NCBI RefSeq assembly: GCF_026309355.1
Contig: NZ_JAPJZK010000001.1
Coordinates: 620,001-684,000 of the forward strand
Reading direction: 5' to 3'
DNA: 64,000 nucleotides
From: Spartinivicinus marinus
GTDB taxonomy: Bacteria; Pseudomonadota; Gammaproteobacteria; Pseudomonadales; Zooshikellaceae
A program made the translations under genes and the position numbers. Under the pieces are notes generated by a model. That model was given only the letters and a program-made list of their open reading frames with translations. It did not search any database and was not told where the DNA came from. Of this stretch, positions 514 to 24,075 are shown one piece after another. How positions within the stretch are numbered: position 1 is the stretch's first letter; each line of letters starts with the position of its first letter.

Positions 514-713
514 TAAAAGGTGACCCAAAAGGCTTGCCGTGGTGCTTTTCCATTTAATTCCGCTTCCAAGGACTTAATATAATGCTCCAACTGTTGAGGG
601 GCATGAAAGGTAACGCTATTGCCTTCGCTGTCGCGGACAGTAGCACGGAGTGAACCCGTTTGTAGCTTATGTAAAGCAGCTTTGGCTTCTTCTAAACGTT
701 GCTGGTGGGTCAT
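513..713 (-). CDS. gpW-like head-tail joining (head completion) protein
   Basis: A 66-residue protein resembling lambda gpW, which plugs the portal after packaging and forms the platform for tail attachment. The family pattern is visible: an N-terminal helix (LEEAKAALHKLQTGS), a short beta pair (ATVRDSEGNSVTF) and a C-terminal helix (LEHYIKSLEAEL). The length matches lambda gpW (68 residues). It overlaps the terminase gene by 4 bases on one side and the portal gene by 1 base on the other, so the three are translated as a coupled set. Family assignment is from length, pattern and position. Confidence 0.85.
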   Translation of the reverse strand: MTHQQRLEEAKAALHKLQTGSLRATVRDSEGNSVTFHAPQQLEHYIKSLEAELNGKAPRQAFWVTF

Positions 714-2800
714 CCTAATAAATCCGCTAAGTCTGAGAGTTGTAAGGCAGGTGTCGTTGATTGGTTGGGTTGGTTTGAGTGGGTGACTAAACGGTTATCA
801 TCCCAGTGAGCGGCCCAACCCGGTGGTTGTTGCCAATTAAGCTTGTGGGCATTGAGTTTTAATAAACAGCCCATGTTGTACACCAATAAATCCCACGCTT
901 CGTTAGGGGCTTTATCGACGACTTTGCACCAACGGCCTTTCGCATCGCGGGCTTCATTGGTGAGCTCTTCAAAAAAGTCTTTCGTGAGCCAATCCGGAAA
1001 GTGAATATAATCCGCGCCGGGTTCATCCCGTTCTAATGCATTACTCACCGTATCTTTAATTAAATTGGTATTGAGTAAATAGAGTGGGATATCCCCTTGA
1101 ATAAAGGCTTTACGTTGTTGCCGGTTGCGATTATCAGGAAAGGTTTCTTGAATGCGTGGCGCACCTTCGCGGCCTGTGCCTTTAATTAAGATTAAACGGT
1201 GAGTTAATTGCCGATTTTTTAAATACCGATAAAATTCATAGGCCTTATCGGTCACCCCATCTTCACCACCACTGTCACAGGCGACTAATTTAATTTGCAT
1301 TAAACGACCGGAATTGTCCGCTAAGGGATAGGTTTTATGGATGACCTGATCAACCAGGCAATGCCAGTCTTCTTTAAAAGCGGCGGGATTTAATGGGTAG
1401 GGTTTACCTTTATGGTCTAGCCGCTGGGATTTATCTATCATGAATCGATCAATGACCCAACCTTCAAATTCTTTTCCCCAGCCAATAACCTGCACAACAA
1501 AACGCTTTTGTTTACCGCCCTGCACATCAATCGCAGCGGTTAAAAAGCGGACGCCTTCAGGAACGACTTGTTCACCTAAGTTTTCCTGGCGATCCATTAA
1601 GGCTTCAGCGGTGCGAAATTCGGTATTGTGTCGATAACGATAGGGTTTACCTAAATCTAAATTGGTCCAGCTTTTTAATTTTTCTTGGCTGCCGGTATGC
1701 TCATAATCCTGTTCGGCTAACAGCCCTTGATACACCAGTTGTTGCCAGGTCTGAAAGCCTGCTGCCGGACCTTCTAACCAAAAGGTGGCCATTTTAGAAG
1801 AACGGCTTGTGCCATATTGATTGCCTTTTTTATCCAGCCATTCGCCTTCTTTCAGCCAACGCCCGGCTTGGTTCAGTTTGAATTTTTGCTCAGGGCGTAT
1901 TACCCCTTGGCAATGAGGACAACGCATGACTACCGATTCAGCCGCTTTGACTAAATCCGCTTGTTCCACCCAATGCAGGTGATCAAAGATCGGTTGAAAC
2001 CACTCTAAGCAAACCGGATTCGGGCATTGCCAATAATAACGACGCCGGTCGCCCATGTTATACAGGCTTAAAATACCTTGGGTTGGTGGGGATTCATGGG
2101 TGGTGGTGGGTTGCCATTTAGGGTCAAGCACTTCCCAGCCGGGCGAGGATTCCACCAGGGTTTTACCCGCACTCATAAAGGTTTGGGTCCGTTTTTTCGC
2201 TAAGGTATAAGGATCACCTTCTTCATCCACATTCGCGGGCAAGCGATCATAGTCCGTTAAGGCCACATAACGATAATCCGAGCTGGATAATACATTAATT
2301 GTTGGCCAACCAATTTTTAAATAATTTCCCGGCTTAAAAATAATATCGTGGACATTGTTGTCATGCCGCCGACTGGAGCATTGATCACGTAAATTGGGGC
2401 TCGCATAAATGGTGCGCCGAATCCTTTTTTTAGAATACTCTTGCGCTTTTTCTTTGGAAAGCTGCACAATCAACATGTCAGCTGGCTCAATCATAATGAC
2501 ATAGGCCATCCAACCCTCAATAAGCGCATTGGTTTTACCACAACGTGCAGGCCCAACAAATACCACTGATTCATAATCCCGTTGATTGAGGCAATTTAAT
2601 ACCTCCACTAAATAGGGAATAGCATCGGTTGTCCATGGCTGACTGCTACCAGCAGCCCCCGGTATCCATAAGCTTTCTTCAATGGCTTGAGTCACCGTTA
2701 ATCGTCGTGGTGGTTTAAATAAACAAGCCACTTCTTTGCGGATTTGTTCGGCAGAAGCAAAGTTATTTGATTCGGTCATACAGGGATTGGCGTATACCAT
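710..2800 (-). CDS. Terminase large subunit, GpA family
   Basis: A 696-residue packaging ATPase/nuclease of the lambda gpA family, which cuts concatemeric DNA at cos and drives it into the prohead. A Walker A motif GPARCGKT lies at residues 83-90. A zinc-ribbon-like CPNPVC...CPHC cluster sits around residues 270-310. The C-terminal half carries the acidic nuclease region of the family. The start at 2800 has GGTGG upstream and overlaps the small-subunit gene by 38 bases; a second ATG at 2779 has no clear ribosome site. The length suits the family (lambda gpA 641). A GpA-type terminase predicts cos rather than pac packaging. Confidence 0.95.
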   Translation of the reverse strand: MVYANPCMTESNNFASAEQIRKEVACLFKPPRRLTVTQAIEESLWIPGAAGSSQPWTTDAIPYLVEVLNCLNQRDYESVVFVGPARCGKTNALIEGWMAYVIMIEPADMLIVQLSKEKAQEYSKKRIRRTIYASPNLRDQCSSRRHDNNVHDIIFKPGNYLKIGWPTINVLSSSDYRYVALTDYDRLPANVDEEGDPYTLAKKRTQTFMSAGKTLVESSPGWEVLDPKWQPTTTHESPPTQGILSLYNMGDRRRYYWQCPNPVCLEWFQPIFDHLHWVEQADLVKAAESVVMRCPHCQGVIRPEQKFKLNQAGRWLKEGEWLDKKGNQYGTSRSSKMATFWLEGPAAGFQTWQQLVYQGLLAEQDYEHTGSQEKLKSWTNLDLGKPYRYRHNTEFRTAEALMDRQENLGEQVVPEGVRFLTAAIDVQGGKQKRFVVQVIGWGKEFEGWVIDRFMIDKSQRLDHKGKPYPLNPAAFKEDWHCLVDQVIHKTYPLADNSGRLMQIKLVACDSGGEDGVTDKAYEFYRYLKNRQLTHRLILIKGTGREGAPRIQETFPDNRNRQQRKAFIQGDIPLYLLNTNLIKDTVSNALERDEPGADYIHFPDWLTKDFFEELTNEARDAKGRWCKVVDKAPNEAWDLLVYNMGCLLKLNAHKLNWQQPPGWAAHWDDNRLVTHSNQPNQSTTPALQLSDLADLLG

Positions 2801-8969: not shown

Positions 8970-9054
8970 TGTTGTTATTCTCCATTCGTTATTTCGGGTT
9001 TTACGTACTTTTGACAACCTTGTCTTTAATCTGCTTTTACTTTGTCAAAACTAA

Positions 9055-11531: not shown

Positions 11532-11636
11532 TACCCTACCTCCTAATATCATCATTTACTTATTACTTCGATGTAAAAAAGAATTTAGAAATTAATCAAG
11601 ACTTAGTGATAAAGCATCTATCTCTTAACGGGGTTA

Positions 11637-11978: not shown

Positions 11979-12196
11979 CAGTCAGTTTCCTTTTAAGTTT
12001 AGGTATCTAAATAAGTACAATTCCTGTCCTACAACACTCCAATTCGGTACTACTGACTCCGTATCTCTGACTGGGGAGTAGTGACATCCCAACCCCACTC
12101 AGATATAGTTATTGCTCAACCAAGGGATGTGAAGAGCCCAATAGCCGCGAGGCTACTCCTTATACCTCTCCCCATCTCCTTTGTTGTTTCGGGTTT

Positions 12197-12229
12197 AGCC
12201 GGACTTCCCTTGGGAGGTTCCGGCTTTTT
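12197..12229 (+). terminator. Intrinsic terminator upstream of the repressor gene
   Basis: Arms AGCCGGACTTCCC and GGGAGGTTCCGGCT pair through most of their length around a TT loop and are followed by five T. No protein gene on the plus strand ends just before it, so it would terminate a short rightward transcript from 11980-12196, possibly a small RNA opposite the leftward leader. Confidence 0.75.
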
Positions 12230-12230
12230 A

Positions 12231-12305
12231 TTATGTGACAAGTATATGTATACACAGAGTAGAATTAAGTGTCAACAGTTCTGCTATAATTTATTTTATG
12301 TGTCA
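12231..12305 (+). promoter_or_regulatory. Repressor promoter with three 10-bp operator-like repeats
   Basis: Three related 10-mers, TTATGTGACA (12231), TTAAGTGTCA (12265) and TTATGTGTCA (12296), flank a perfect -10 hexamer TATAAT at 12285-12290. The second overlaps the expected -35 position and the third overlaps the expected start of transcription, as for an autoregulated repressor. A GTATA-TG-TATAC palindrome (12242-12253) lies beside the first. No good -35 is seen. Operator function is inferred from spacing and position. Confidence 0.5.
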
Positions 12306-12316
12306 TTTAAGTTTTT

Positions 12317-12745
12317 ATGGGTAACAAAAAGTCTGAACTAAAGGATCGTATTAGGGCTGCTAGGAAGTACCGACTCCATAACCAAACGGAGTTGGGGGAG
12401 TTGCTTGGCCTTAGCAAGTCTGCTGTTGCTGCATGGGAGCATGGAAGAAATGTTCCTAGTATTCGTATAATTCAACAGCTAAGTGAAGTTCTTGATTGCC
12501 CCTTTGATTGGCTAGTCTCAGATGAAAGCGAAATAGATGCTCTGTGGTTAGAAAAAGTCACTAATGAACATCCAGACAAAGTTGATAATGAAAATCTAAC
12601 TCGTAATCGTGTCATGGAAGATGTAACTACAATTTCAGTGAAACTTACTGAATTAGCATTAGATAGCAAACTTAAGCAGTCTGATGTAAAAATGTTTAAG
12701 GCACTTCTACAGATTATCGAAGAACGCATAGAAGTAGGTGAATAA
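12317..12745 (+). CDS. XRE-family phage repressor (CI-like)
   Basis: A 142-residue protein with an N-terminal helix-turn-helix of the XRE/CI/Cro type at about residues 10-60 (QTELGELLGLSKSAVAAWEHGRNVPS). The C-terminal half is helical (residues 100-140) and presumably dimerises; there is no S24/LexA-like peptidase domain, so RecA-driven self-cleavage is not expected and induction probably needs another route, such as the antirepressor at 3545-4270. It is divergent from the leftward early gene and preceded by repeated operator-like 10-mers. It probably maintains lysogeny. Confidence 0.85.
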   Translation: MGNKKSELKDRIRAARKYRLHNQTELGELLGLSKSAVAAWEHGRNVPSIRIIQQLSEVLDCPFDWLVSDESEIDALWLEKVTNEHPDKVDNENLTRNRVMEDVTTISVKLTELALDSKLKQSDVKMFKALLQIIEERIEVGE

Positions 12746-12910
12746 TCGCTACCCTTCCTTAACCCACTAGTAAACCATCTCCTTTACCTTCCTCAATCAT
12801 CAATAAATTTTATTAATTAGCAAGAGATCTTTTATTAGTTATTTTGGGTTGATTTCATCGAAAATAATGACACTATAAATAGAAAAGATACTTAGAGTAG
12901 AGTTGTTGCT

Positions 12911-13297
12911 ATGGACGGTAACGTAATATCAGAAGGACACTGGCAAGCGCACCTGAACAATCCGCATCTTGCCCCACGGGAAACGTTGTACTGCTTCGGT
13001 CTCCTAGCGGGTAAGTCTGACAAGCAGATCGCCCGCGATTGTGAAGTCTCACCGGGCACAGTGACGCAACGTATAAAAACTGTACATTACAAGCTACAGA
13101 CCCATAACCGGGCACATTTAGTGGCTGAGTTAATTAGGCTAAAAGTGGTTACCCCACTAATGATGGTATTAGCTGCGATTACTCTACCGGAAGTACCACT
13201 CTTTGCCCAAGACGATGACCCGAATCAACCGCGCCAGGTACGCATTACTCAGCGACCTGTACGACGAGCTGATGATACAACGACATTACTAGTATAA
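12911..13297 (+). CDS. LuxR-type HTH regulator with hydrophobic C-terminal segment
   Basis: A 128-residue protein. Residues 20-80 form a LuxR/GerE HTH (LAPRETLYCFGLLAGKSDKQIARDC, then SPGTVTQRIKTVHYKLQ). This is followed by a hydrophobic stretch (PLMMVLAAITLPEVPLFA, about 82-99) and a polar, basic tail. There is no receiver or autoinducer domain. The hydrophobic part is long enough for one membrane span, so the protein could be a membrane-tethered regulator. It is the first gene after the repressor and precedes rdgC by 11 bases. The target is unknown. Confidence 0.78.
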   Translation: MDGNVISEGHWQAHLNNPHLAPRETLYCFGLLAGKSDKQIARDCEVSPGTVTQRIKTVHYKLQTHNRAHLVAELIRLKVVTPLMMVLAAITLPEVPLFAQDDDPNQPRQVRITQRPVRRADDTTTLLV

Positions 13298-13308
13298 GGA
13301 GCCACACA

Positions 13309-14229
13309 ATGGCATCAATAAAGGAAGCAACAATTTATAGACTTAAAGTCCACTCAGATATGGTAGTGGAAAAAATAATGGGTGGGTTACAACAATATGC
13401 ATTTCAGCCTTGTGGTAAAACTCAGGAATTAAGCCATGGCTTTACGCCAGTTGCTGACAATAACTTTGTTTTAATGGGTGATCACTTGGTTTTATTCCGT
13501 TACAAAATCGAAGAAAAAATATTGCCTAAAGCCGTGATTGAACATCATGCCGAAAAACGTATTGTAGAAGCCGAAGAAAAAAACGGTAAACCCTTATCTA
13601 AACAAGAAAAAGAACAAATAAAAGAGGCTGTCCGTATTGAATTACTCCCGCGTGCTTTTAGCCTTTATAAAACCATTGATGCTTATATTGATACACAAAA
13701 CGGTTGGTTAGTGGTGGGTAGCTGTAATAATACAGTGCTTGATTATGTGTTGAGCGCTATTAGGCAAGTAGTGAGTGGTTTTTCTAGTGAGCTAATGGTG
13801 ACAAGAGATGAACCTAGCGCCAAGATGACGGCTTGGATATTTCAAGAGGCTTTAGATTTTTCTGCATTTTGGTTAGGTGACAGTGCCAAAATAACCAACC
13901 ATGATGGTGGTGCTATTAACTGTCGTAAAGAAGACTTACAAAACGACGATATTATCGAGCTTTGCCAATCACGCCAAGTCAAGCAATTAACGCTTGAAAG
14001 TATGCATTACACCTTTGACATCACCGAACACATGCAAATTAAACGACTCAAAATTGATGATGCTTACACCGAATCTCATATAAATTCAGACGAGGAAGAA
14101 GACAAGCTTCATTACCTCCGGGTTAATGCTTTTGTCACTCAACAAACCATCAGTGAAATTATGAATACCTTAATTAAGGCGTTTGGTGGATTGGTTGAGG
14201 AAAAAGCGCCTGAAGAGAAAGCGGCATGA
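13309..14229 (+). CDS. rdgC: RdgC-like recombination-associated protein
   Basis: A 306-residue protein matching RdgC along its length: the N-terminal IYRLKVHSDM strand, the QELSHGFTPV segment, LLPRAFSLYKTIDAYID in the middle and a C-terminal WLGDSAKITNHDGGAI block. Host RdgC forms a ring dimer on DNA and limits RecA filament formation. A phage copy could protect phage DNA intermediates from RecA or favour the phage's own annealing pathway. It overlaps the next small gene by 4 bases (ATGA) and heads the rightward recombination block. Confidence 0.92.
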   Translation: MASIKEATIYRLKVHSDMVVEKIMGGLQQYAFQPCGKTQELSHGFTPVADNNFVLMGDHLVLFRYKIEEKILPKAVIEHHAEKRIVEAEEKNGKPLSKQEKEQIKEAVRIELLPRAFSLYKTIDAYIDTQNGWLVVGSCNNTVLDYVLSAIRQVVSGFSSELMVTRDEPSAKMTAWIFQEALDFSAFWLGDSAKITNHDGGAINCRKEDLQNDDIIELCQSRQVKQLTLESMHYTFDITEHMQIKRLKIDDAYTESHINSDEEEDKLHYLRVNAFVTQQTISEIMNTLIKAFGGLVEEKAPEEKAA

Positions 14230-14435
14230 AACCCATGGCCACCCAATTACCCGAACGAGAGCTAAAAGCAAACCAAGCATTAAGAAGGAGAAAAACTGAA
14301 GCCGAAATTATGTGGGAGAAAATCTCCAGGGAGTACCACGAATTATTAAAGATTAACAACAGCCTAAGAATACGATTACGTTATCAACTCGATAAAACGA
14401 AACATAGATTACTAAGAGAACCTGCCGGGTTCTAA
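14226..14435 (+). CDS. Small basic helical phage protein
   Basis: A 69-residue protein, strongly basic and almost all helical (many Arg, Lys, Glu, Leu). Its start overlaps the rdgC stop by 4 bases, so it is translationally coupled to it. No family recognised. The heptad-like spacing of hydrophobic residues from 25 to 60 suggests a short coiled coil. Confidence 0.6.
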   Translation: MKPMATQLPERELKANQALRRRKTEAEIMWEKISREYHELLKINNSLRIRLRYQLDKTKHRLLREPAGF

Positions 14436-14511
14436 ACCGAATAAATAGCTGAAATTAAAAATGCTCAAATTAGAGCCACGGCACCTTATTGCCTGAAAAA
14501 AGGAGAAGGAC

Positions 14512-15036
14512 ATGACATTAATGCATCAACTGATCACTAATAATATTCAACGCTATTGTGCATGCGGTGAGGAAATTAAAACCAAAAAGTCTACTCACTG
14601 TGTGAAATGCTTGAAAAAGCAAAACGAAAAAGAGCTTAAAGAGAGGTTAAAAAAGCTAGAACAAGTAAAAGCTGAGGATTGCCTGACTAAGTTATTTGTG
14701 CCAGTGCTAGCAGGATTCAGTGTGTTAGCCAAGTTCTTTGATGGTAATGCAAAACAGCTAATCGAAAAATATAAGTCAGAAGGTAAGGAACCACCGTGGT
14801 ATGCCTATCCCGCACTTGAAAAACGATGGGAAGGCTTGCCCATAGCGGAAATACTTGACTGTGAAATTGATTTTATACGACTCAAACCGGGTTCCAAGGT
14901 TATTGGTCGAGAAGAACTCATCAAGTTCGTGACTGAGTGGAACCAACAGCAAAAGATTATTTATTACGCAAAAGATAGAACGAAAATCGTCATTATCGAT
15001 CAGGCCCGCTTTGATCAGTGGATGGCAGAAGAATAA
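14512..15036 (+). CDS. Phage protein with N-terminal zinc ribbon-like cysteines
   Basis: A 174-residue protein. Residues 16-35 hold two cysteine pairs (CACG and HCVKC) that could bind zinc, followed by a Lys/Glu-rich helix and a globular C-terminal half with a REELIKFVTEWNQQQ segment. The ATG at 14512 follows AAGGAG at good spacing. The gene lies in the rightward early operon between rdgC and the recombination genes. No family recognised. Confidence 0.6.
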   Translation: MTLMHQLITNNIQRYCACGEEIKTKKSTHCVKCLKKQNEKELKERLKKLEQVKAEDCLTKLFVPVLAGFSVLAKFFDGNAKQLIEKYKSEGKEPPWYAYPALEKRWEGLPIAEILDCEIDFIRLKPGSKVIGREELIKFVTEWNQQQKIIYYAKDRTKIVIIDQARFDQWMAEE

Positions 15037-15064
15037 TTAATTGATTCCAACAAGGATGATTATC

Positions 15065-15283
15065 ATGAGCTCAGAACTAACAGACGAAAAACTATTAGAA
15101 GCACCTCTAGAGATTTTAGTTAATGCAATGAAAGAGTGCAAAACACAATTCTATACCAGGACTATTTCAGACTCTGATAATTGCCCAATACCAGGCACAA
15201 CACTTGTTTTGTATCGCGGACGATTACCCCATGCTTTTTCTGAAGGCGTCCGTAATCTATGCATACAACTAAACCAATTTTAA
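15065..15283 (+). CDS. Small hypothetical phage protein
   Basis: A 72-residue acidic protein. The ATG at 15065 is preferred because AAGGA lies 8-9 bases upstream; an in-frame TTG at 15041 would overlap that site. No recognised motif; the ending GTTLVLYRGRLPHAFSEGVRN suggests a small alpha/beta fold. It is part of the rightward early operon. Confidence 0.5.
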   Translation: MSSELTDEKLLEAPLEILVNAMKECKTQFYTRTISDSDNCPIPGTTLVLYRGRLPHAFSEGVRNLCIQLNQF

Positions 15284-15311
15284 TAACCTGAAATAACCAA
15301 GGAGTTAAACC

Positions 15312-15728
15312 ATGCATGCAATCCAACAACCACAACCCGTTAATATGATTGATGAATTGGCTAATCAATGGGAGTTTGCCAAACAACAAGAAACAGAAGC
15401 AATAAAAAGTCGTCGTGCTATTGAAGATAAACTGATTGAATTAGTTGGCCGTAAACCTGAAGGTACTTGCAGTAAATCCACTCATTACTTCAAGCTAAAA
15501 ACTAACGCTAAAGTTAATCGCAAAGTAGATGTCAATAAGTTAGCTGATGTCGCGCAGTCCATAAACCCCACCTTATTTAATAATCTGTTTCGGGTGAAAT
15601 ATGAGGTGAATACCACGGCTTTTAAAGAGTTAATGATAACCGATAGTCGGACCTACAATGTTGCAGCGCATGCAGTGATTTCCACCCCAGCCAGAACTAG
15701 CGTCAGCGTCGAACGCTTGGAGCAATAA
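15312..15728 (+). CDS. Conserved-type phage protein next to the recombinase
   Basis: A 138-residue protein with a helical N-terminus (NMIDELANQWEFAKQQETEA) and a beta-rich middle (THYFKLKTNAKVNRKVD). It ends 2 bases before the Sak4-like ATPase. Short proteins of this pattern often precede AAA_24/DUF669 pairs in phage recombination modules, so an accessory role is plausible. I cannot name the family. Confidence 0.6.
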   Translation: MHAIQQPQPVNMIDELANQWEFAKQQETEAIKSRRAIEDKLIELVGRKPEGTCSKSTHYFKLKTNAKVNRKVDVNKLADVAQSINPTLFNNLFRVKYEVNTTAFKELMITDSRTYNVAAHAVISTPARTSVSVERLEQ

Positions 15729-15730
15729 CC

Positions 15731-16483
15731 ATGGCCATTTCATTAGCCAGCATATCAAAAACCAACGGGATTAAGGCCCCACGGATATTGATTTATGGCA
15801 CCCACGGCATTGGTAAAACTACCTTTGCTGCTGGTGCGCCTAATCCTATCTTTTTATTTACCGAAGATGGAGCCGGTCAATTAGAGCTAAATTCCTTTCC
15901 ATTGCTCACAAGCTATTTTGATGTCATACAGGCGTTAGCGGCTTTATATAATGAGGAACATAATTTTCAGACTGTCATTATTGATTCACTGGACCATTTA
16001 GAGCCCTTAATTTGGGCCCATACGGCTCAGCAATGTAATAAAGACAGTATCGAAGACTTTGGCTATGGCAAAGGCTATATGGAAGCCTTACGTTATTGGC
16101 GTGAAATATTAGGTTGGCTGGATGCCTTACGTAATCAAAAAGGCATGACCTATATTTTAACGGCTCATACCCATATTAAACGCTTTGATAGTCCTGAAAC
16201 CGATTCTTATGACCGTTACCAAATTAAACTCAATGACAAGGCCAGTGGTTTGGTTCAAGAGTCAGTGGACTGTGTACTGTTCTGTAATTATCAAGTCAAT
16301 ATTAATAAAGCGGATGTTGGTTTTGGTAAAGAAAAAGCCCGAGGTATTTCCACTGGACAACGGCTGATTCATACCGTCGAAAAACCCGCTTATATCGCAA
16401 AAAACCGTTTTAATTTACCCGAAAAAATGCCCCTTTCATGGGAGGCATTTACCAATGCACTTAACCCACAACCCTCTGTATAA
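15731..16483 (+). CDS. AAA_24 phage ATPase, Sak4-like recombinase/annealase
   Basis: A 250-residue P-loop protein of the AAA_24 family, a remote RecA relative. Walker A is GTHGIGKTT (residues 25-33), Walker B is TVIIDSLDHL (about 79-88), and YILTAHTHIKRFD follows as the sensor region. The family includes Sak4 of phage HK620, which anneals single strands with its cognate SSB. The next gene is a DUF669 SSB-like protein 11 bases on, which fits that pairing, and a nuclease and a helicase follow. No other annealase is visible in the window. Confidence 0.82.
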   Translation: MAISLASISKTNGIKAPRILIYGTHGIGKTTFAAGAPNPIFLFTEDGAGQLELNSFPLLTSYFDVIQALAALYNEEHNFQTVIIDSLDHLEPLIWAHTAQQCNKDSIEDFGYGKGYMEALRYWREILGWLDALRNQKGMTYILTAHTHIKRFDSPETDSYDRYQIKLNDKASGLVQESVDCVLFCNYQVNINKADVGFGKEKARGISTGQRLIHTVEKPAYIAKNRFNLPEKMPLSWEAFTNALNPQPSV

Positions 16484-16494
16484 GGAGAGTAACC

Positions 16495-17115
16495 ATGGCA
16501 AGTTTTGGATTTAACACGGGCGAATATGATCCTAATGCCGGTTTTGATGTATTACCTGCAGGTGATTATATAGCAATGCTGGTGGAAGCTGATATTAAAA
16601 CCAACTCCAAAAATACAGGCCAATTTATTAACTGCAAATGGTTAATTACTGAAGGCGAGTTTGCTAACCGGAATATTTTTGATGTAGTGAATATTACCCA
16701 TCAAAATACCATGGCTGAGAAATTAGGTCGGCAACGACTGTCGGCTATTGCCCATGCCATCGGTATTCCTGACGCGCAAGATACCGATCAACTGCTACAA
16801 AAGCCCTGTGTGTTAACTTTGGGTATAAAAAAAGATAAAGAGTATGGCGATAAAAATATTATTAAGCATTTTGCCGCTTATCAGTTTGGTATGCAACAAC
16901 CGGCATCACCGGGCAGTTACCAACAAACAGCTGTGCCTACTATGCCGCCACAAGGTATCCAACAGCAGCCACCTGCACAACCACAAATAAACCAAGCGCC
17001 AATACAACAACCAGTAGCTCAGCCTCCACAACAACCAATGAATATTGGAGGTCCAAATGGTCAGCCGGTATTTAATACGCCATCGTCTGAGCAAGCAGCA
17101 AAAATAGCCGTTTAA
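16495..17115 (+). CDS. DUF669 protein, probable phage single-strand DNA-binding protein
   Basis: A 206-residue protein whose first 135 residues match DUF669 (LPAGDYIAMLVEADIKTNSKNTG, then a CKWLITEGEFANRNIFD block), an OB-fold-like ssDNA-binding family. The last 70 residues are a Pro/Gln-rich disordered tail (about 137-190), as in many SSBs, though it ends EQAAKIAV rather than in the acidic tip of host SSB. It is 11 bases from the Sak4-like gene. It probably coats ssDNA and loads the ATPase. Confidence 0.75.
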   Translation: MASFGFNTGEYDPNAGFDVLPAGDYIAMLVEADIKTNSKNTGQFINCKWLITEGEFANRNIFDVVNITHQNTMAEKLGRQRLSAIAHAIGIPDAQDTDQLLQKPCVLTLGIKKDKEYGDKNIIKHFAAYQFGMQQPASPGSYQQTAVPTMPPQGIQQQPPAQPQINQAPIQQPVAQPPQQPMNIGGPNGQPVFNTPSSEQAAKIAV

Positions 17116-17168
17116 TTAAGTTCCACCTGCGGGTGGGAAATTACTTAATCAATAATAAGGAAGCAAAA

Positions 17169-17390
17169 ATGGAATCATTATTAACAGCAAATATTGATAC
17201 TTATATGGAGACCCAACTACAAGACATTTTGCAACATATGATGACTCAAAAAACAAGAAAAATAGAATTGAAGTTAATGGATGGTGATGGAAACCCTGAG
17301 ATAGCTGTTGTTCTTATCACAGAAGACATTCAAACCTATCTAGATGCCATTGATAAAACAGAGAAAGAAATTAAACAAGCAGAACAATAG
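17169..17390 (+). CDS. Small acidic phage protein
   Basis: A 73-residue acidic protein with two helices flanking a short strand pair (KIELKLMDGDGNPEIAVVLITED). The ATG at 17169 follows AAGGAAG; an in-frame GTG at 17133 has no site. It follows the SSB-like gene in the rightward operon. No family recognised. Confidence 0.5.
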   Translation: MESLLTANIDTYMETQLQDILQHMMTQKTRKIELKLMDGDGNPEIAVVLITEDIQTYLDAIDKTEKEIKQAEQ

Positions 17391-17401
17391 GCACTAAAAA
17401 A

Positions 17402-17455
17402 GCATTGCTTCGTAAACGCGGGCTTGGGTCATAAAGTACAACAACGAAGCAATGC
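17402..17455 (+). repeat. Perfect 12-bp inverted repeat (stem-loop) inside the early operon
   Basis: GCATTGCTTCGT (17402-17413) and ACGAAGCAATGC (17444-17455) are exact complements around a 30-base loop. They sit in the only sizeable gap (194 bases) within the rightward operon, between the small acidic protein and the Cas4-like nuclease. No T-run follows, so it is not a simple terminator. It may be an RNA processing or attenuation element, or a protein-binding site. Confidence 0.7.
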
Positions 17456-17584
17456 CAAGGTACGCAGGGGTAACTATACACCCATTTACTAAGACTGCTA
17501 TGGACGAAAAAAGTTTACTGCAACTGCCATAACTAATTTTATTAAAAACGACACTTTCAACACTCGGTTACCGGGAGTGAATAC

Positions 17585-18625
17585 ATGCAAATTCCTGACG
17601 CCAGCAATACAACAGTTAATGCCATTTACAAACATTATGAACAAAATGCCGATAGTGGTTTTCGGGCTCACTTAGGCGCTTCCATCATTGGTAAAGAATG
17701 CCAACGGGCGCTGTGGTATGACTTCCATTGGTGCACCCCTAGTAATCATTCAGGCCAAGTACTCCGGTTATTTGAAACTGGTCAATTAGCCGAAGCACGC
17801 TTTGCTGAAAATCTTAGAGCTATTGGCGTACAAATTCATACCGTCGACCCGAAGACCGGTTTGCAATATCGAGTGGTGGCTTGTGATGGCCACTTTGGTG
17901 GCAGTATGGATGGCATTGGTCAAGGGTTTCCAGAAGCCCCAAAGACACCGCATGTGGTGGAAATGAAAACCCATAGCGAGAAATCATTTAAAGACTTACA
18001 AAAGAAACAAGTCAAAGAATCCAAGCCTCAAAATTACACCCAAATGCAAGTGTATATGCATCTTGGCGGGTTTGAACGAGCCTTTTATATTGCCGTGAAT
18101 AAAAACACTGACGAGCTTTATGGTGAACGGGTTGAGTATGATAAACCCCATGCCAGAGAAGCTATTGATAAAGCCTGTCATGTAATTTTTTCAACGGCAC
18201 CACCAAACAAGCTTACCGAAGACCCAAGCTTTTTTAAGTGCAAGTTTTGTGATCACCAAGCCGTTTGCCATCAAGGGAAATTACCACCGGTTAACTGCCG
18301 TACCTGTATGCATTCTACCCCAGTGGAAAATGGTCAATGGCTATGTGAACGTTACCAACTTAACCCCACTGATGAACAGCAGCGCTGGGGCTGCCAGAGT
18401 CATATGTTTAACCCACACCTGTTGTATCCCTGGGCAGAGGTACTGGACAGCGGGGATTACTGGTATCAGTTTGTTATCAAAGCCACTGGTGAAATCATTA
18501 CCACGGGTGAAGCACCTGAACACTACAAGAGTAGTGAATTAAGAGCCGTTTCTGATTTATCACTATTAAAAGATAAAAACGTTGAGGCTATTCGAGAATA
18601 CTTTGATGCCAAGGTGGTGGCATGA
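17585..18625 (+). CDS. Cas4-like PD-(D/E)XK exonuclease with probable Fe-S cluster
   Basis: A 346-residue nuclease. Catalytic residues are Asp109 (GGSMDG), Glu126 and Lys128 (VVEMKTH), followed by the QMQVYMHL helix. Cys39 in KECQRALWY together with Cys219, Cys222 and Cys228 (CKFCDHQAVC) gives the one-plus-three cysteine layout of Cas4 and AddB iron-sulfur nucleases. A further set (Cys238, Cys241, Cys254 and one near 271) could bind zinc. It overlaps the helicase gene by 4 bases. It probably resects ends for the Sak4-like pathway. Confidence 0.85.
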   Translation: MQIPDASNTTVNAIYKHYEQNADSGFRAHLGASIIGKECQRALWYDFHWCTPSNHSGQVLRLFETGQLAEARFAENLRAIGVQIHTVDPKTGLQYRVVACDGHFGGSMDGIGQGFPEAPKTPHVVEMKTHSEKSFKDLQKKQVKESKPQNYTQMQVYMHLGGFERAFYIAVNKNTDELYGERVEYDKPHAREAIDKACHVIFSTAPPNKLTEDPSFFKCKFCDHQAVCHQGKLPPVNCRTCMHSTPVENGQWLCERYQLNPTDEQQRWGCQSHMFNPHLLYPWAEVLDSGDYWYQFVIKATGEIITTGEAPEHYKSSELRAVSDLSLLKDKNVEAIREYFDAKVVA

Positions 18626-20247
18626 AACTCCGACCTTATCAGCAGGAAGCGATTCAGGCATTAATTGACTATTTCCATCGTGCCACAGGAAACCCATTAA
18701 TTTGTATCTCTACTGGTGGTGGTAAATCAGTCGTCATAGCGGCTTGGTGTCAGTTGGTGTTAAACCAATTTCCTAACCAGCGTATATTAATCCTTAGCCA
18801 TGTTAAGGAAATTCTGGAGCAGAATTACAGCAAACTAAAAACCCTGGCCCCTGACGTGGATATGGGGATTTATTCGGCCAGCTTAAAACGCAAAGACAAA
18901 GACGCCAGTGTGTTATTTGCTGGCATCCAATCCGTGTATTCCAAGGCGTTTGATTTAGGGCCATTCAATTTAATCATTGTAGACGAATGCCACTTAATTA
19001 ATGCCGATAAAGACACCACCATGTACAGCCAGTTTTTTACCGATGCCAAAAAGATGAATCCCAATATTAAAGTGATTGGGTTTTCAGCGACACCATATCG
19101 GATGAAATCGGGCTTACTGACTCATGGTGACAATGCCTTATTCGATGAAATTGTCTATGAAACCGATATTCAGCAATTAATTGATGATGGGTATTTATCT
19201 CCCTTGGTTACCAAAGGCGGTCGGCAGAAAATCGACCTCTCTGGCGTACGGACCCAGAACGGTGACTATGCCTCTAAGGATATGGAAAAGGCGGTTAATA
19301 AAGATGATTTAACTGATAAGGCTTTGGCTGAAATTATTGAGTTAGGCGCAGACCGAAAAAGCTGGTTGATCTTTGGAGTATCCGTTAATCACTGTTTGGA
19401 AATTGAAGAGAAATTAAAAAAATTGGGTGTCTCCGTAAGTGTTATTCATGGTAAGACACCCATTAAGTTTCGGGATGAAACTACTAAGTACTTTAAACAA
19501 GGTAGGTTACGTTGCTTAATTTCGCAAGGTGTTTTAACCACTGGCTTTGATGCACCTAGAACCGACCTGATTGCATTATTACGCTCCACTAAGTCCGCTG
19601 GGTTATATGTCCAAATACTAGGACGAGGACTGAGAATATCGCCCGAGACTGGCAAGGCTAACTGCTTAGTGTTGGATTATGGGGGTAACGTTGAACGCCA
19701 TGGGCCAATTGATCAAATCAAAGTTAGGAATGCAGGCAAGAAAAAAGAGCCGGGCGAAATGCCTGTTAAGGAATGCCCGAAGTGCCAGTTATTTATTCCA
19801 TGTTTTGCATCAGAGTGCCCAGATTGTGGTTATATTTTTCCACCTCAAGACCCTCACAAAGCGACAGCCAGCAATAAAGCAGTCTTATCTGCCATGCAGC
19901 AGGCCGAATGGTATCCAGTGGAAGCCGTGTTTTATCAACTGCATAGCAAGGCGTTTTCAAACAATTCGGTCAAAGTCACTTATCAATGTGGTACAGAGTT
20001 TTTTGATGAATGGGTTTGCTTTGAGCATACCGGTTTTCCCAAACATCGCGCATTAACCTGGTGGGTACAACGTGTCGGGTATCAACCACCCTGCCCGAAT
20101 AATTGTGATAGCGCCTTAGATTATTTAAATAATAATAAAGTCAAAACCCCTTCAGCCATTCAGGTTAAACCGGAAGGCAAATATAAAAAAATAATTAATT
20201 ATGAGTTTCTACCCGAGACAATAAAGGAGATGGCTTATGGAAATTAA
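18622..20247 (+). CDS. SF2 DEAD/DEAH-type helicase with C-terminal zinc motif
   Basis: A 541-residue superfamily 2 helicase. It has a Q-like RPYQQEAI start, motif I STGGGKS (30-36), motif II DECH (121-124), motif III FSATP, and motif VI QILGRGLRIS. Near residue 383 a CPKC...CPDCG cluster forms a zinc ribbon. The length and layout match phage and conjugative-element ResIII-type helicases. It is coupled to the Cas4-like nuclease by a 4-base overlap, so the two likely act as a nuclease-helicase pair in replication or recombination. Confidence 0.92.
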   Translation: MKLRPYQQEAIQALIDYFHRATGNPLICISTGGGKSVVIAAWCQLVLNQFPNQRILILSHVKEILEQNYSKLKTLAPDVDMGIYSASLKRKDKDASVLFAGIQSVYSKAFDLGPFNLIIVDECHLINADKDTTMYSQFFTDAKKMNPNIKVIGFSATPYRMKSGLLTHGDNALFDEIVYETDIQQLIDDGYLSPLVTKGGRQKIDLSGVRTQNGDYASKDMEKAVNKDDLTDKALAEIIELGADRKSWLIFGVSVNHCLEIEEKLKKLGVSVSVIHGKTPIKFRDETTKYFKQGRLRCLISQGVLTTGFDAPRTDLIALLRSTKSAGLYVQILGRGLRISPETGKANCLVLDYGGNVERHGPIDQIKVRNAGKKKEPGEMPVKECPKCQLFIPCFASECPDCGYIFPPQDPHKATASNKAVLSAMQQAEWYPVEAVFYQLHSKAFSNNSVKVTYQCGTEFFDEWVCFEHTGFPKHRALTWWVQRVGYQPPCPNNCDSALDYLNNNKVKTPSAIQVKPEGKYKKIINYEFLPETIKEMAYGN

Positions 20248-20470
20248 CCAGATGCATTTATCAAGAGAAAATAGAAAGGTTGTTGAGAGAATGAGGGAAT
20301 ATATTAGCTATTACAAACTAGCCAAGGCGGATGGACGAAAACCTGAGAGAATACAGTTAGAAGCTAAACAGTATGAAAAGCTGAGGAAAAATTTACTAAC
20401 AAAGACTAACGGCAAATGTAAACCACCCTACACCCTCAACAATATACCTGTTGTACCGGTTAACCATTAA
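20237..20470 (+). CDS. Small basic phage protein
   Basis: A 77-residue basic protein, helical in its first 55 residues (RENRKVVERMREYISYYKLAK). The start overlaps the helicase gene by 11 bases and follows GGAG. Nothing links it to a known family. It precedes the CsrA-like gene by 9 bases. Confidence 0.55.
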   Translation: MEINQMHLSRENRKVVERMREYISYYKLAKADGRKPERIQLEAKQYEKLRKNLLTKTNGKCKPPYTLNNIPVVPVNH

Positions 20471-20479
20471 GGAATCACT

Positions 20480-20785
20480 ATGCTAGCACTCACGCGAAAA
20501 TACGGACAGTCCATTAATATTGGTAACGATATCAGAATTTCACTGGGTGGGTTTAATCGTAAGTCGGCCCGGCTAGGAGTGGTGATGTATAAACAATTAG
20601 CTATCAAGGAGGTACCTTACGAGCTTGATCAAAAGTTAGATGATGACATTACGTTTTTTATTCGTCTTATTGGTGGTCAGGTGCGTTTCTATTTTGATGC
20701 ACCGAGAGAGATTAAAATATTACGAAGTGAGCTGGAAGCAAGGAAGAAAAAAATTAAGCCCAATAAAAAGTTAACGGCTGCTTAA
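20480..20785 (+). CDS. CsrA/RsmA-family protein, apparent tandem-repeat pseudodimer
   Basis: A 101-residue protein in which residues 1-49 align without gaps to CsrA (MLALTRKYGQSINIG, Gly24, Arg31, Gly33, Val34, Lys38). Residues 54-88 align again to CsrA strands 2-5 and the helix (QVRFYFDAPREIKILRSELE). Host CsrA is a ~61-residue homodimer that binds GGA in mRNA leaders using strand 1 (Leu4, Arg6) of one chain and Arg44 of the other. Here repeat 1 keeps Leu4 and Arg6 but has Glu44; repeat 2 lacks strand 1 but has the Arg44 equivalent, Arg82. One complete site per chain is predicted. An RsmN-like insertion is the alternative reading. Confidence 0.8.
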   Translation: MLALTRKYGQSINIGNDIRISLGGFNRKSARLGVVMYKQLAIKEVPYELDQKLDDDITFFIRLIGGQVRFYFDAPREIKILRSELEARKKKIKPNKKLTAA

Positions 20786-20794
20786 GGAGATACC

Positions 20795-21013
20795 ATGCGA
20801 CTTATTAGCTTGGAAAATTACAGAAAAACCAAGTTTCCTTTTGGTGATGGACCTTCAATGGGGTCATTGCGACGACAGTGCCGAAGTGGTGATCTTGCTG
20901 GCGCTCGAAAGGAAGGTAAATTATGGTATGTAGATATAGATGTTGCCTCATCGACGAGTGGTGATCCATTAGTGGAGCAGGTATTAAGTGAGATAGGTTT
21001 TTATGACACCTAG
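20795..21013 (+). CDS. Excisionase-like protein (Xis)
   Basis: A 72-residue protein with a winged-helix pattern of the lambda Xis/MerR-like type: LENYRKTKF, then SMGSLRRQCRSGDLAGARKEGKLWYVDID. Excisionases bend attachment DNA and direct the integrase towards excision. AAGGAG precedes its ATG. It overlaps the integrase start by 11 bases, the usual xis-int coupling. Confidence 0.75.
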   Translation: MRLISLENYRKTKFPFGDGPSMGSLRRQCRSGDLAGARKEGKLWYVDIDVASSTSGDPLVEQVLSEIGFYDT

Positions 21014-22130
21014 ACGTAGAATTAAACCGGGGCTCTGCCCCAACCTTTATGAGTCTGATGGGCTTTACCGTTATCGACACCCTTATAAGAAAACCTGGCA
21101 TAATTTAGGGCGTGATAAGGCTAAAGCCGTTAAAGCAGCTAAAGAGCTGAATGCCATATTATTGCCCAATCATGAAACGTTAATTCGTGGTGTCATGGGT
21201 TTAGACAATAAAACCGTCAAAGATTTAATCCTTAAATTTAAAGAAGAAATATTACCCAAGAAAGAATTAAAGGAGCGTTCATTATACGAGATAAATTACC
21301 GCTTAAATAGAATTGAAAAAGATATCGGCCATTGGGCATTAACGAAATTATCCACACAAAAAATTGCTTATTATTTAGATATTAATTTTAAAGGGGATGC
21401 CTATAAACAACACCGCTCTGTATTAAATCAACTCTGTCGCACTGCTGTAGTTAAAGGCTGGATGAAAGAAAATCCCGTAGAAGCCACCCTGCCTACCCTG
21501 CAAGGTGAAAAAATAAAAAAACAAAGAAGTCGATTAACCGTAGAACAATACCAAGCCATCTATCAATTTGCAGAACCCTGGTTACAAATAGCAATGGACT
21601 TGGCTCTGACCACGCTACAAAGACGCTCAGACTTATTACAACTAAAATTCACCGATATTAAAGACGGCAGATTATACCTAGTTCAAAGTAAAACCGAAAA
21701 GCATGGTGATGCAGCCCGACTATCCATTCATGTTGGCCATGATTTACAAGCCATTATACAACGAGCAAGGTCTAGTGGTGTGCTCTCCCCTTTCATCATT
21801 CACCGAAAGCCGCTACAACGCCAGAGAAAGCAACTAGAGGCTAAGGCGCATTGGACAGCCATCACCCCACGATACTTGTCGGATGCCTTTGCTCAAGCCC
21901 GAGATAAAACGGATTTATTTACCAGCGTACCACAACAACAAAGACCCACTTTTCATGAAATCAGGGCTTTAGGTGGACACCTCTATGAACAGCACGGTAG
22001 AACTAAAGCCGAAGTACGGTCATTAATGGGCCATACTACTGACAAGATGACAGAGCATTACTTACAGGGGCATGTAGAAAGGTGGACGATGGTTGATGCT
22101 GATTTTAGGTTGGATTGGCTAAAAGAATAA
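21003..22130 (+). CDS. Tyrosine-type phage integrase
   Basis: A 375-residue site-specific recombinase. The catalytic residues are Arg207 (QRRSD), Lys230, His318 and Arg321 (FHEIRALGG), His344 (LMGHTT) and the nucleophile Tyr353 (HYLQG). The N-terminal 60 residues form an arm-binding domain (GLYRYRHPYKKTWHNLG) and residues 70-160 a core-binding SAM-like domain. It is the last gene of the rightward operon. A nested palindrome begins 107 bases after its stop. Confidence 0.95.
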   Translation: MTPRRRIKPGLCPNLYESDGLYRYRHPYKKTWHNLGRDKAKAVKAAKELNAILLPNHETLIRGVMGLDNKTVKDLILKFKEEILPKKELKERSLYEINYRLNRIEKDIGHWALTKLSTQKIAYYLDINFKGDAYKQHRSVLNQLCRTAVVKGWMKENPVEATLPTLQGEKIKKQRSRLTVEQYQAIYQFAEPWLQIAMDLALTTLQRRSDLLQLKFTDIKDGRLYLVQSKTEKHGDAARLSIHVGHDLQAIIQRARSSGVLSPFIIHRKPLQRQRKQLEAKAHWTAITPRYLSDAFAQARDKTDLFTSVPQQQRPTFHEIRALGGHLYEQHGRTKAEVRSLMGHTTDKMTEHYLQGHVERWTMVDADFRLDWLKE

Positions 22131-22236
22131 TATTATTTGTGTAAAAATAGTGTGATTTGCTAGTTTTTAAAGAGTTTAACTGTAAACTTGAAATAACCAT
22201 ACCTCCTCCCTTTTTTCGGATTAAGCGCTACTCTTC

Positions 22237-22284
22237 TGTGCTAAATTTTCTTGCATCGTATTTCATGCAAGAGATTATAGCACA
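22237..22284. repeat. Nested palindrome downstream of the integrase (candidate att core)
   Basis: TGTGCTA (22237-22243) pairs with TAGCACA (22278-22284), and inside it TCTTGCAT (22249-22256) pairs with ATGCAAGA (22265-22272). Five unpaired bases separate the stems on each side and the centre is 8 bases. Two 8-base inverted core sites around an 8-base overlap are what a tyrosine integrase core site looks like. There is no T-run, so a terminator is unlikely. The matching left attachment site is outside the window. Confidence 0.45.
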
Positions 22285-22308
22285 AAAGTATTGATTATTC
22301 CCGACTGA

Positions 22309-22611
22309 TTAGTATTTTTCCTGCATCCTACAACTTCCCTTATTATAAATACTATTATCGCTTTTTAAAATTTGATAATGGTAGGCATCTCTATATTTAT
22401 CACAGGTAACTTCTTGATGATGAGATAAATCAAAAATATTCTCAAAAAACCTAGTGGAAGAACCTATGTAGTTTCCTGAATAGTCAAAAATTTTTATCGT
22501 GTAAGTATCGCTAGGGACGCCACCTACCGTATTCCTTAACTGATGAGGGCTACATCCAAATAGAAAAGCTCCCATTAAAATAACAAAACTAAGTTTTTTA
22601 AAATTCAACAT
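22309..22611 (-). CDS. Small lipoprotein of unknown function
   Basis: A 100-residue protein with a lipoprotein signal: hydrophobic residues 8-18 and lipobox LFGC with Cys20. The mature part has two cysteines near the end, possibly a disulfide, and a TYTIKIFDYSGNYIGSS beta segment. It lies between the integrase and tRNA-Pro, so it is either phage cargo or a host gene next to the insertion. No family recognised. Confidence 0.65.
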   Translation of the reverse strand: MLNFKKLSFVILMGAFLFGCSPHQLRNTVGGVPSDTYTIKIFDYSGNYIGSSTRFFENIFDLSHHQEVTCDKYRDAYHYQILKSDNSIYNKGSCRMQEKY

Positions 22612-22885
22612 AACTTATATTTACCGCTCAACAATATAGAGTTAATGTAAGTTTAAGTAGACTAGATTTAAAACCAAAAATAAATCAATACTTACAGCAG
22701 AGTCTACCTCTGAGGTATCTGATATTAATAAAATACTCTATCAGACTACTAAGACATGAAAATATAAAGCCATTAAATTATATATGGTCTATTAAGACAA
22801 ACAACAATAAAAATGTAAATTTTGTAAAGATTATTAGATTTTATTAAACTAATAGTTTGATAGATAAAATGAAGCTAGGCAATAT

Positions 22886-22916
22886 ATAATTATCCCATTT
22901 TTTATGGGATAATTAT
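22886..22916. repeat. Perfect 13-bp hairpin
   Basis: Arms ATAATTATCCCAT (22886-22898) and ATGGGATAATTAT (22904-22916) are exact complements around a TTTTT loop. The outer arms are A/T only, so it resembles a bidirectional terminator with weak ends or a protein-binding palindrome. The nearest genes are 275 bases (lipoprotein) and 360 bases (tRNA-Pro) away. Confidence 0.7.
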
Positions 22917-23191
22917 TTATAATATATTCCACAAAACTTTAACATAAAACTTCTGCTGTTTAATATCCCTTTGCTAAGCAAAACGAAGCCACGCATTACC
23001 CTGGCATGCAATGAAGTGATAATTCAAACTTGAATACCAAAAGCAAACCTAAGGCAACTTACCAGAAAGAATACCTTCTTCTGATCGTTAAACTCAGTAA
23101 TGATCAAACCATAAACAAACACCAACTTAAAACAAAACTTGCCCCATAAATAGAAGTCAGTTGTCGTTTAGTAGACTTTTGCTAAAAATTA

Positions 23192-23221
23192 TATTGCAGG
23201 TTATTGCAGAATATTGCAGGA
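23192..23221. repeat. Three tandem 10-bp repeats (TATTGCAG core)
   Basis: TATTGCAGGT, TATTGCAGAA and TATTGCAGGA follow one another exactly, with an invariant TATTGCAG core. The spacing of one helical turn puts the sites on one face of the DNA. They lie 55 bases from the 3' end of tRNA-Pro, where arm-type sites of an integrase would be expected. Confidence 0.65.
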
Positions 23222-23276
23222 CGAGAATGAGTCTCAATTTCAAAGACTTGTAAGTGATTGATCTAGAAAGAAAAAA

Positions 23277-23353
23277 TGGTCGGAGTGAGAGGATTCGAAC
23301 CTCCGACCCCCACAACCCCATTGTGGTGCGCTACCAGGCTGCGCTACACTCCG
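23277..23353 (-). tRNA. tRNA-Pro (anticodon GGG)
   Basis: A 77-base cloverleaf with the CCA end encoded. The acceptor stem is CGGAGTG/CACTCCG. The anticodon stem CCACA/TGTGG encloses the loop ATGGGGT, giving GGG. The T arm contains GGTTCGAATCC. It is the last gene of the ihfA-merR-like cluster, and its 3' end faces the prophage. Confidence 0.97.
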
Positions 23354-23355
23354 AA

Positions 23356-23377
23356 TTGCTTCAAGGCTTTGAAGCAA
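23356..23377 (-). repeat. 9-bp hairpin immediately 5' of tRNA-Pro
   Basis: TTGCTTCAA (23356-23364) and TTGAAGCAA (23369-23377) are exact complements around GGCT. On the minus strand the stem ends two bases before the mature tRNA 5' end, so it may guide processing of the precursor. Confidence 0.65.
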
Positions 23378-23387
23378 TGGTGATGAT

Positions 23388-23423
23388 ACAGGAAATCCGC
23401 TGAAGTTCAAGCGGATTTCCTGT
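23388..23423 (-). terminator. 14-bp perfect stem-loop after the MerR-like gene
   Basis: ACAGGAAATCCGCT (23388-23401) and AGCGGATTTCCTGT (23410-23423) are exact complements around an 8-base loop. It starts 7 bases beyond the MerR-like stop codon. No T-run follows on the minus strand, so it may stabilise or process the transcript rather than end it. Confidence 0.55.
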
Positions 23424-23429
23424 CGTGAT

Positions 23430-23792
23430 TTAACGAGACTTTAATACAGCAAGCACTTCTTCCAGCTCGGCGATCATCTGCCGTATAAGTTGTTTATATT
23501 GCGTGCGATCTGATTTTGAGTCTTCACCAGCAAGCTGATTTCTAGCCCCACCAATAGTAAAGCCTTTTTCATATAGCAAGCTTCTAATTTGCCGGATCAT
23601 TAATACATCTTGACGCTGGTAATAGCGACGATTACCTCGCCGCTTTACGGGTTTGAGTTGTTCAAACTCTTGTTCCCAATAACGAAGCACATGGGGCTTC
23701 ACCTGGCACAGCTCACTTACTTCACCAATAGTAAAGTAGCGTTTACCAGGTATCGCTGGTAGTTCTTCATTGATGATGCTTGGTTCCAGCAT
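23430..23792 (-). CDS. MerR-family regulator (ihfA-linked)
   Basis: A 120-residue protein with an N-terminal MerR winged helix: [25 protein letters not shown], then [18 protein letters not shown] at residues 48-66. The C-terminal helix is short and has no metal-binding cysteine motif, so the ligand is not evident. A MerR-like gene after ihfA and before tRNA-Pro is a conserved arrangement in Pseudomonas and relatives. It overlaps ihfA by 26 bases. Confidence 0.88.
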
Positions 23793-24075
23793 ATGCCTCT
23801 ACTCTTGCCTTGAGTTTTTGTCCTGGTCTGAAGGTAACCACTCTTCTTGCAGATATTGGAATCTCCTCCCCTGTTTTTGGGTTTCGACCTGGCCTTTCTC
23901 GTTTGTCTCTTAAGTCAAAGTTACCAAAGCCAGACAATTTAACTTGTTCATTAGATTCCAAGGCATGACGAATTTCTTCAAAGAACAACTCTACCATATC
24001 CTTGGCTTCTCGCTTGTTAAGGCCAAGCTCCTCAAAAAGACGCTCAGCCATTTCTGCTTTCGTCAGTGCCGCCAT
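23767..24075 (-). CDS. ihfA: Integration host factor subunit alpha
   Basis: A 102-residue DNA-bending protein of the HU/IHF family. It shows the alpha-subunit features: [29 protein letters not shown], the [14 protein letters not shown] turn, and the [12 protein letters not shown] arm with the proline that intercalates DNA. IHF helps phage integration, packaging at cos and many promoters. It begins 3 bases after pheT, as in other gammaproteobacteria. Confidence 0.97.

Follow-up and report, generated by a model that had tools for sequence, protein, structure and literature searches.

A prophage-encoded CsrA-like protein of two repeats as a candidate single-chain pseudodimer with one RNA-binding site

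The prophage locus and its double CsrA gene

The window analysed here, a stretch of 64,000 nucleotides from the genome of Spartinivicinus marinus, carries prophage genes, among them the terminase large subunit on the reverse strand (710..2800, phrog_15) and a repressor-type HTH regulator on the forward strand (12317..12745). A row of phage genes, all on the forward strand, encodes in order a Sak4-like annealing protein (15731..16483, phrog_124), a single-strand DNA binding protein (16495..17115, phrog_6015), a Cas4-domain exonuclease (17585..18625, phrog_1990), a phage helicase (18622..20247, phrog_16), a small protein, orf77 (20237..20470), which had no match in Pfam, the CsrA-like protein which is the subject of this work (20480..20785), an excisionase-like protein (20795..21013, phrog_629 at 1.8e-5) and an integrase (21003..22130, phrog_7244 and phrog_1). 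The sequence AAGGA ends 6 bases 5' of the ATG of the CsrA-like gene, and the stop codon of this gene is overlapped by AAGGAG (20784..20789, forward strand), likely the ribosome site of the next gene. A tRNA-Pro gene (ggg, 23277-23353) lies 1.1 kb behind the integrase gene, and a scan of positions 9000-24000 against Rfam gave nothing above the cut-off except tRNA.

A preliminary description of the window had read the ORF at 20480-20785 as a CsrA-like protein to which CsrA aligns twice. The ORF was found at these coordinates on the forward strand and encodes 101 amino acids, and the Pfam CsrA family (PF02599) matched its product, which we call dCsrA for double CsrA, in two stretches with a score of 61.3 bits (8.3e-17), above the cut-off of 27. 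When scored alone, residues 51-101 reached 27.6 bits (2.9e-6) and residues 11-53, from which strand 1 was omitted, 16.1 bits (0.011), below the cut-off; residues 1-40 were aligned by Pfam as a single uninterrupted run. The NCBIfam csrA equivalog model TIGR00202 also matched in two stretches, but its score of 50.4 bits lies under the cut-off of 70.1 and leaves dCsrA outside the equivalog, and a custom CsrA HMM, whose scores are inflated by the presence of 26 rows from doubles among its 216, aligned residues 1-48 and 53-90. The top match among sequences with a solved structure was 2jpp_A (residues 1-44), which is listed as a translational repressor / carbon storage regulator homolog; 1vpz is another solved CsrA/RsmA relative by sequence, and RsmF and RsmN matched weakly by sequence, over residues 56-88 only.

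Based on Pfam, AlphaFold2 and alignment, repeat 1 (residues 1-49, 20480..20626) comprises strands 1-5, keeps Arg6 (codon 20495..20497) and has Glu at position 44, whereas repeat 2 (residues 53-90, 20636..20749) comprises strands 3-5 and a helix and keeps Gln67, Ala74-Pro75, Arg82 (codon 20723..20725), which is the equivalent of Arg44, and Glu84. The residues are thus as first described, with Arg6 and Glu44 in repeat 1 and Arg82 in repeat 2. Judging from the comparison with its relatives, the two-repeat layout is not due to chance, since proteins of 92, 73, 72 and 24-39% identity share the same layout, and since dN/dS values of 0.12-0.36 over the six pairs among the four closest copies indicate purifying selection.

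Relatives and the residues of one putative RNA-binding site

Members of the CsrA family are characterised, in a passage of PMC7366521, as short chains of 65-75 residues on average that form homodimers. The preliminary description had proposed a search for homologues with the same repeat, which yielded 24 distinct full-length doubles, from the prophages of one bacterial family (the home family), from three genomes elsewhere in the order, from two phages of Pseudomonas (vsMR and Psp6, the gene of the latter being annotated csrA) and from viral contigs (L048, L101, L242, L296 and L297); G004:C224, which is cut by a contig end, was excluded from this set. In all eight of the other doubles that were scanned, Pfam CsrA again matched in two stretches. 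The viral contigs gave up relatives in alignment-based scans and none in single-sequence scans with the window protein, vsMR or L041, and tblastn searches of phages with L101 and L046 returned nothing useful.

The window's genome encodes five dCsrA genes in addition to an ordinary CsrA (L001, 90.9 bits), and a relative of the same genus encodes eight. In genome counts which are lower bounds, with 12 candidates scored in genomes that had many, the search of the order (E<=1e-14) found doubles in 8 of 390 genomes, at least one in each of the five home-family genomes and one each in three genomes of other families, and the window's own genome was the only one found in the class (1 of 369, E<=1e-12, using a home-family model) and again the only one in the phylum (1 of 398, E<=1e-14). 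A separate CsrA-like protein of the window's genome (L002:1498-1971, 157 amino acids) has a long charged tail and Ile rather than Arg at position 6.

Several candidates were rejected as doubles. The annotation of H41, from a Stutzerimonas plasmid, is that of a CsrA of 62 amino acids despite an alignment over 1-85, and L084, L118, L122, L130, L160 and L175 gave long tblastn ranges or matches, yet are single units; the ends of the single-unit viral CsrAs L084 and L292 are much like repeat 2 of the doubles. The genes of Pavtok gp9, PTXU04 gp28 and DC1 gp46, which like dCsrA are phage-borne CsrA homologues, code for 63, 66 and 64 residues and are single units by length alone. Viral proteins of 122-123 amino acids (L063, L091 and others; phrog_5527) consist of one CsrA stretch followed by an unrelated tail, and the window protein is not of this type, as the doubles give two CsrA stretches.

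Since hmmalign left most of repeat 1 unaligned in the divergent doubles, the residue counts rest on a MAFFT alignment of the 24 sequences, which are kin and do not represent 24 events. All 24 doubles have Arg6 in repeat 1 together with Pro37, Arg44 and Glu46 in repeat 2 (CsrA numbering), and repeat 2 also kept Gln29 in 23 (Lys in the other) and Ala36 in 22 (Gly in two). The mirror residues in repeat 1 have nearly all been lost, with Gln29 in none of the doubles, Ala36 in one and Pro37 in two; the column of window Glu44 holds a single Arg (vsMR, where the alignment is uncertain), as does the column after it (L311). Position 4 is Leu in 15 doubles, Val in eight and Ile in one; 19 have Thr or Ser at position 5, 19 have Lys or Arg at position 31 of repeat 2, and six retain Arg at position 31 of repeat 1. 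In ordinary CsrAs, drawn with the custom HMM that included rows from doubles, Arg6, Arg44 and Glu46 were each present in 155/155 (one of 156 was dropped as out of register). Three of the 24 doubles (L308, L314 and L320) were picked by a pattern requiring Arg6 and an R-x-E motif and hence provide no independent test of these residues; the other 21 were gathered by homology without that pattern, L311 and L312 being truncated there to 90 residues, although homology searching itself favours conserved residues.

The RNA site of CsrA is described in part of PMC7652899 as formed by strands 1 and 5 of opposing subunits, and a section of PMC3791407 reports an Arg6-Glu46 bridge between the subunits of RsmA. 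Because of this arrangement, the observed asymmetry supports the conclusion that the residues kept in the doubles would be those of one composite RNA site, and that the mirror site has been lost, as the preliminary description had suggested. The complete site would combine strand 1 of repeat 1 (Leu4, Thr5 and Arg6) with Gln29, Ala36-Pro37, Arg44 and Glu46 of repeat 2, and instead of two symmetric sites, each with Arg6 and Arg44, the window protein appears to hold one such pair. The accompanying claim that strand 1 exists only in repeat 1 needs some refinement: the strand at residues 39-46 seems to stand in both roles, and repeat 2 of vsMR and of L297 keeps a recognisable strand-1 region, with Leu in the place of Arg6. 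In our view the protein quite probably binds GGA sites singly, with no bridging of two of them.

Gene neighbourhood and possible targets

The surroundings of dCsrA are steady within the home family. A relative of orf77 or of its longer cousin adjoins the 5' side of dCsrA in every one of the 18 home-family copies, which include the provirus L296, its last codon lying 2-51 bases 5' of dCsrA, in a count made with three related query proteins and E-values from a very small set; orf77 is a possible partner protein. Downstream, a frame matching an integrase starts 189-408 bases after dCsrA in 14 of the 15 home-family genome copies with at least 1.3 kb of sequence on that side, while the fifteenth is followed by N bases and the provirus L296, which has the same protein, does have an integrase. 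Six of these 14 integrases are themselves queries, named by PHROGs, and form three groups that share little or no similarity with one another; one of the matches is weak (4.6e-13). The dCsrA stop codon runs directly into GGAG, likely the ribosome site of the next gene, in 10 of the 17 copies with complete ends.

The 92% sister copy at L039 is closely alike by eye up to dCsrA and then continues with a different xis and an integrase unlike that of the window (window 20786-22130 compared with L039:6073-7443); the swap point between the two sits just behind dCsrA. In L039 and L043, from two genomes, doubles of two subgroups are separated by approximately 7 and 10 kb and point in opposite directions, each accompanied by an integrase of its own, and an excisionase-like protein at L039:12393-12779 has two similar-looking halves, of which the second is matched by the PHROGs excisionase models.

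A one-site protein would probably act by binding one GGA site, at a ribosome site for example, with no bridge to a second. Its likeliest targets within the home prophages would be messages of the element itself, around the orf77-dCsrA-xis-int junction, and we rate somewhat short of even the chance that dCsrA acts on the xis-int junction there. The folds of the RNA at the start and at the stop of four copies had no common GGA hairpin, as judged by eye. A role in cis at xis-int does not generalise to all doubles, because none of the eight from outside the home family for which 1.4-3 kb were examined precedes an integrase of the home type. Their neighbours differ: the double of L311 adjoins a CI-like repressor and has an excisionase-like ORF farther along, that of L310 adjoins a phage replication nickase and a methyltransferase, and that of Psp6 lies three genes after the DNA polymerase.

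An alternative possibility is that dCsrA is directed at the host, in that a protein with one site would occupy GGA on host messages or on Csr-type small RNAs and thereby block or displace the host CsrA. An ordinary CsrA is encoded by the same genome, and full repression of glgC is reported, in the portion of PMC7652899 that deals with it, to need a dimer with both sites, so that a one-site form could compete. Furthermore, knock-down of PTXU04_00028, a phage csrA homologue, is noted in part of PMC11879866 to shrink plaques, this gene coding for 66 residues and being a single unit by length. Nevertheless, dCsrA is followed by an integrase in nearly all home-family copies counted above, and CsrB (RF00018, the only Rfam family of this kind that was tried) was not found in the window's genome. 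We regard interference with the host as rather unlikely, although its probability is not negligible; in the home family the constant location of dCsrA, with a small ORF on one side and xis/int on the other, is at least as suggestive of a role in regulating genes of the element itself as of competition with the host CsrA.

Predicted fold, oligomeric state and origin

The fold of dCsrA was predicted with AlphaFold2, in a main run with six doubles from which ordinary CsrA rows that could bias the model were left out. The five models agreed, with pLDDT of 84.1-87.3 (best mean 87.3) and block means of 92-97 across residues 1-80, whereas a first run on four sequences had been uneven (78.4, 61.3, 43.8, 43.0 and 38.9). 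Nine strands were predicted (E2-6, E11-14, E18-25, E29-36, E39-46, E51-54, E57-64, E67-73 and E80-82), followed by a C-terminal helix (H83-91), from which we infer two CsrA units, each ordinarily of five strands and a C-terminal helix, that share one strand and one helix.

The sheets of RsmA are given in a passage of PMC3791407 as b5A-b2B-b3B-b4B-b1A and b5B-b2A-b3A-b4A-b1B. In the proposed arrangement, strand 5 of unit 1 would run straight into strand 2 of unit 2 and replace strand 1 of the latter. Because the two strands so joined are neighbours in the first of the RsmA sheets, the join could be short and strand 1 of unit 2 dispensable, and a tight b5(1)-b2(2) turn with loss of b1 from unit 2 would be a natural route to nine strands. 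The shared strand (residues 39-46, 20594..20617, forward strand) would thus be strand 5 of repeat 1 lying in the place of strand 1 of repeat 2, a mapping suggested by the predicted E39-46 and by L311, and its occupation of that place would be what removed the mirror site.

The combination of repeat homology and a predicted fold of nine strands with a C-terminal helix supports the single-chain pseudodimer of the preliminary description. That the window protein is a single-chain CsrA pseudodimer with one site is, in our view, probable but by a fair distance not assured, its monovalency, its targets and its oligomeric state being deduced. It would share with the CsrA/RsmA homodimer the family, the strands and Arg6, Gln29, Ala36-Pro37, Arg44 and Glu46, and would differ in having one chain with one complete site, by its residues, and nine predicted strands, instead of two chains with two equivalent sites. 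One working site is likewise what is left in CsrA dimers of which one chain carries R44A (Mercante et al. 2009, cited in part of PMC7652899), but these are two-chain laboratory constructs, while dCsrA is natural and covalent.

Structure searches with the predicted model gave no match in the PDB at E<=1e-3 with Foldseek, where the 50 matches listed per search were mostly unrelated beta proteins. The family to which CsrA belongs was represented in these lists by RsmN/RsmF (4kji_A, E 0.22 and 0.45, probability 0.93 and 0.92) and by no CsrA/RsmA chain, as may be expected given the swapped strands of CsrA. Against BFVD, 11 viral models were found at E<=1e-3, and ranks 1-15, whose likeness is by structure only, had a probability of 1.00, TMq of 0.58-0.75, lengths of 81-201 and identities of 12-27%. 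One of these best 15 is named carbon storage regulator (rank 2, with an RMSD of 12.9 which indicates poor superposition), one is uncharacterized and 13 are without a name in the tables used.

Two chains might also pair through an exposed edge and form a new two-site dimer, bivalent in another geometry. From the predicted strand count, one sheet would be without strand 1 and would have a free edge, and RsmN, itself rearranged, is still an RNA-binding dimer according to the relevant part of PMC3791407. However, the swap of strands 1 and 5 on which the ordinary CsrA dimer depends would already be satisfied within the dCsrA chain, and we find such pairing improbable.

It is far less plausible that dCsrA is built like RsmN, with its chain redirected by an insertion that separates strands 2 and 3 of an ordinary CsrA. 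In Pseudomonas aeruginosa, RsmN/RsmF (4kji, 4k59) is also a rearranged CsrA relative, in which the Arg6-Glu46 bridge lies within one chain; it has a helical insert of 16 residues, lacks the C-terminal helix and is a dimer, as stated in a section of PMC3791407. With MAFFT, alignment to one ordinary CsrA does yield an insertion, dCsrA being placed as strand 1 followed by repeat 2, and RsmN/RsmF are the family members that Foldseek listed from the PDB. On the other hand, Pfam aligns the first 40 residues to CsrA in one run, and an RsmN-like helix within residues 16-53, the outcome that the preliminary description had named as fatal to its own reading, was predicted in neither AlphaFold2 run, strands being predicted there instead. 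Neither the helical insert between strands 2 and 3 nor the lack of a C-terminal helix is thus seen in the predicted window fold, which has a CsrA-like sheet inserted and ends in H83-91. A degenerate fusion without function, which loss of half of the RNA-binding residues and a truncated copy in a relative (L042) could suggest, is the least credible reading of all, given the purifying selection, the site residues kept in 24/24 doubles and the five and eight copies in two genomes.

Other doubles have forms that agree with a single-chain pseudodimer. The 132-amino-acid protein of L297 is a fuller tandem: a linker is present, GES is preceded by a further stretch resembling strand 1, the place of Arg6 in repeat 2 is taken by Leu, and position 44 of repeat 1 holds Asp. 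Residues 36-87 of vsMR and a Vibrio phage CsrA give an alignment free of gaps that begins 5' of the start codon of the latter and puts Leu46 in the place of Arg6, and in L311 the stretch PTLLTQTRKVG can be read simultaneously as the end of repeat 1 (Pro37 to Arg44) and strand 1 of repeat 2 (Arg6). We tentatively propose, as a generalisation that is rather more doubtful than the reading of the window protein itself, that natural one-site single-chain CsrAs are spread in phages and prophages, have arisen more than once by fusion of two CsrA units where strand 5 meets strand 1, and are used by mobile elements on single GGA sites for which a CsrA that bridges is unsuitable, forming in several lineages an integral control of the xis-int switch.

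The need for two-site bridging by CsrA has so far been asked, in the work described in part of PMC7652899, with dimers mutated in one chain; a natural one-site chain, if confirmed, would put this question directly, and dCsrA would show how a swapped dimer could fold into a single chain. No paper on a single-chain or duplicated CsrA was among the matches listed in an open-access literature search covering titles and the starts of abstracts, which weighs little (the words 'two CsrA-like' do occur once in PMC8545117), and the 13 unnamed and one uncharacterized of the best 15 BFVD look-alikes suggest that part of the phage CsrA repertoire may be overlooked. The truncated dCsrA copy in the genome of a relative lies at L042:4378-4590. 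In another genome of the order, two ordinary csrA frames adjoin on the same strand (L035:1426-1940), a possible starting point for a fusion.
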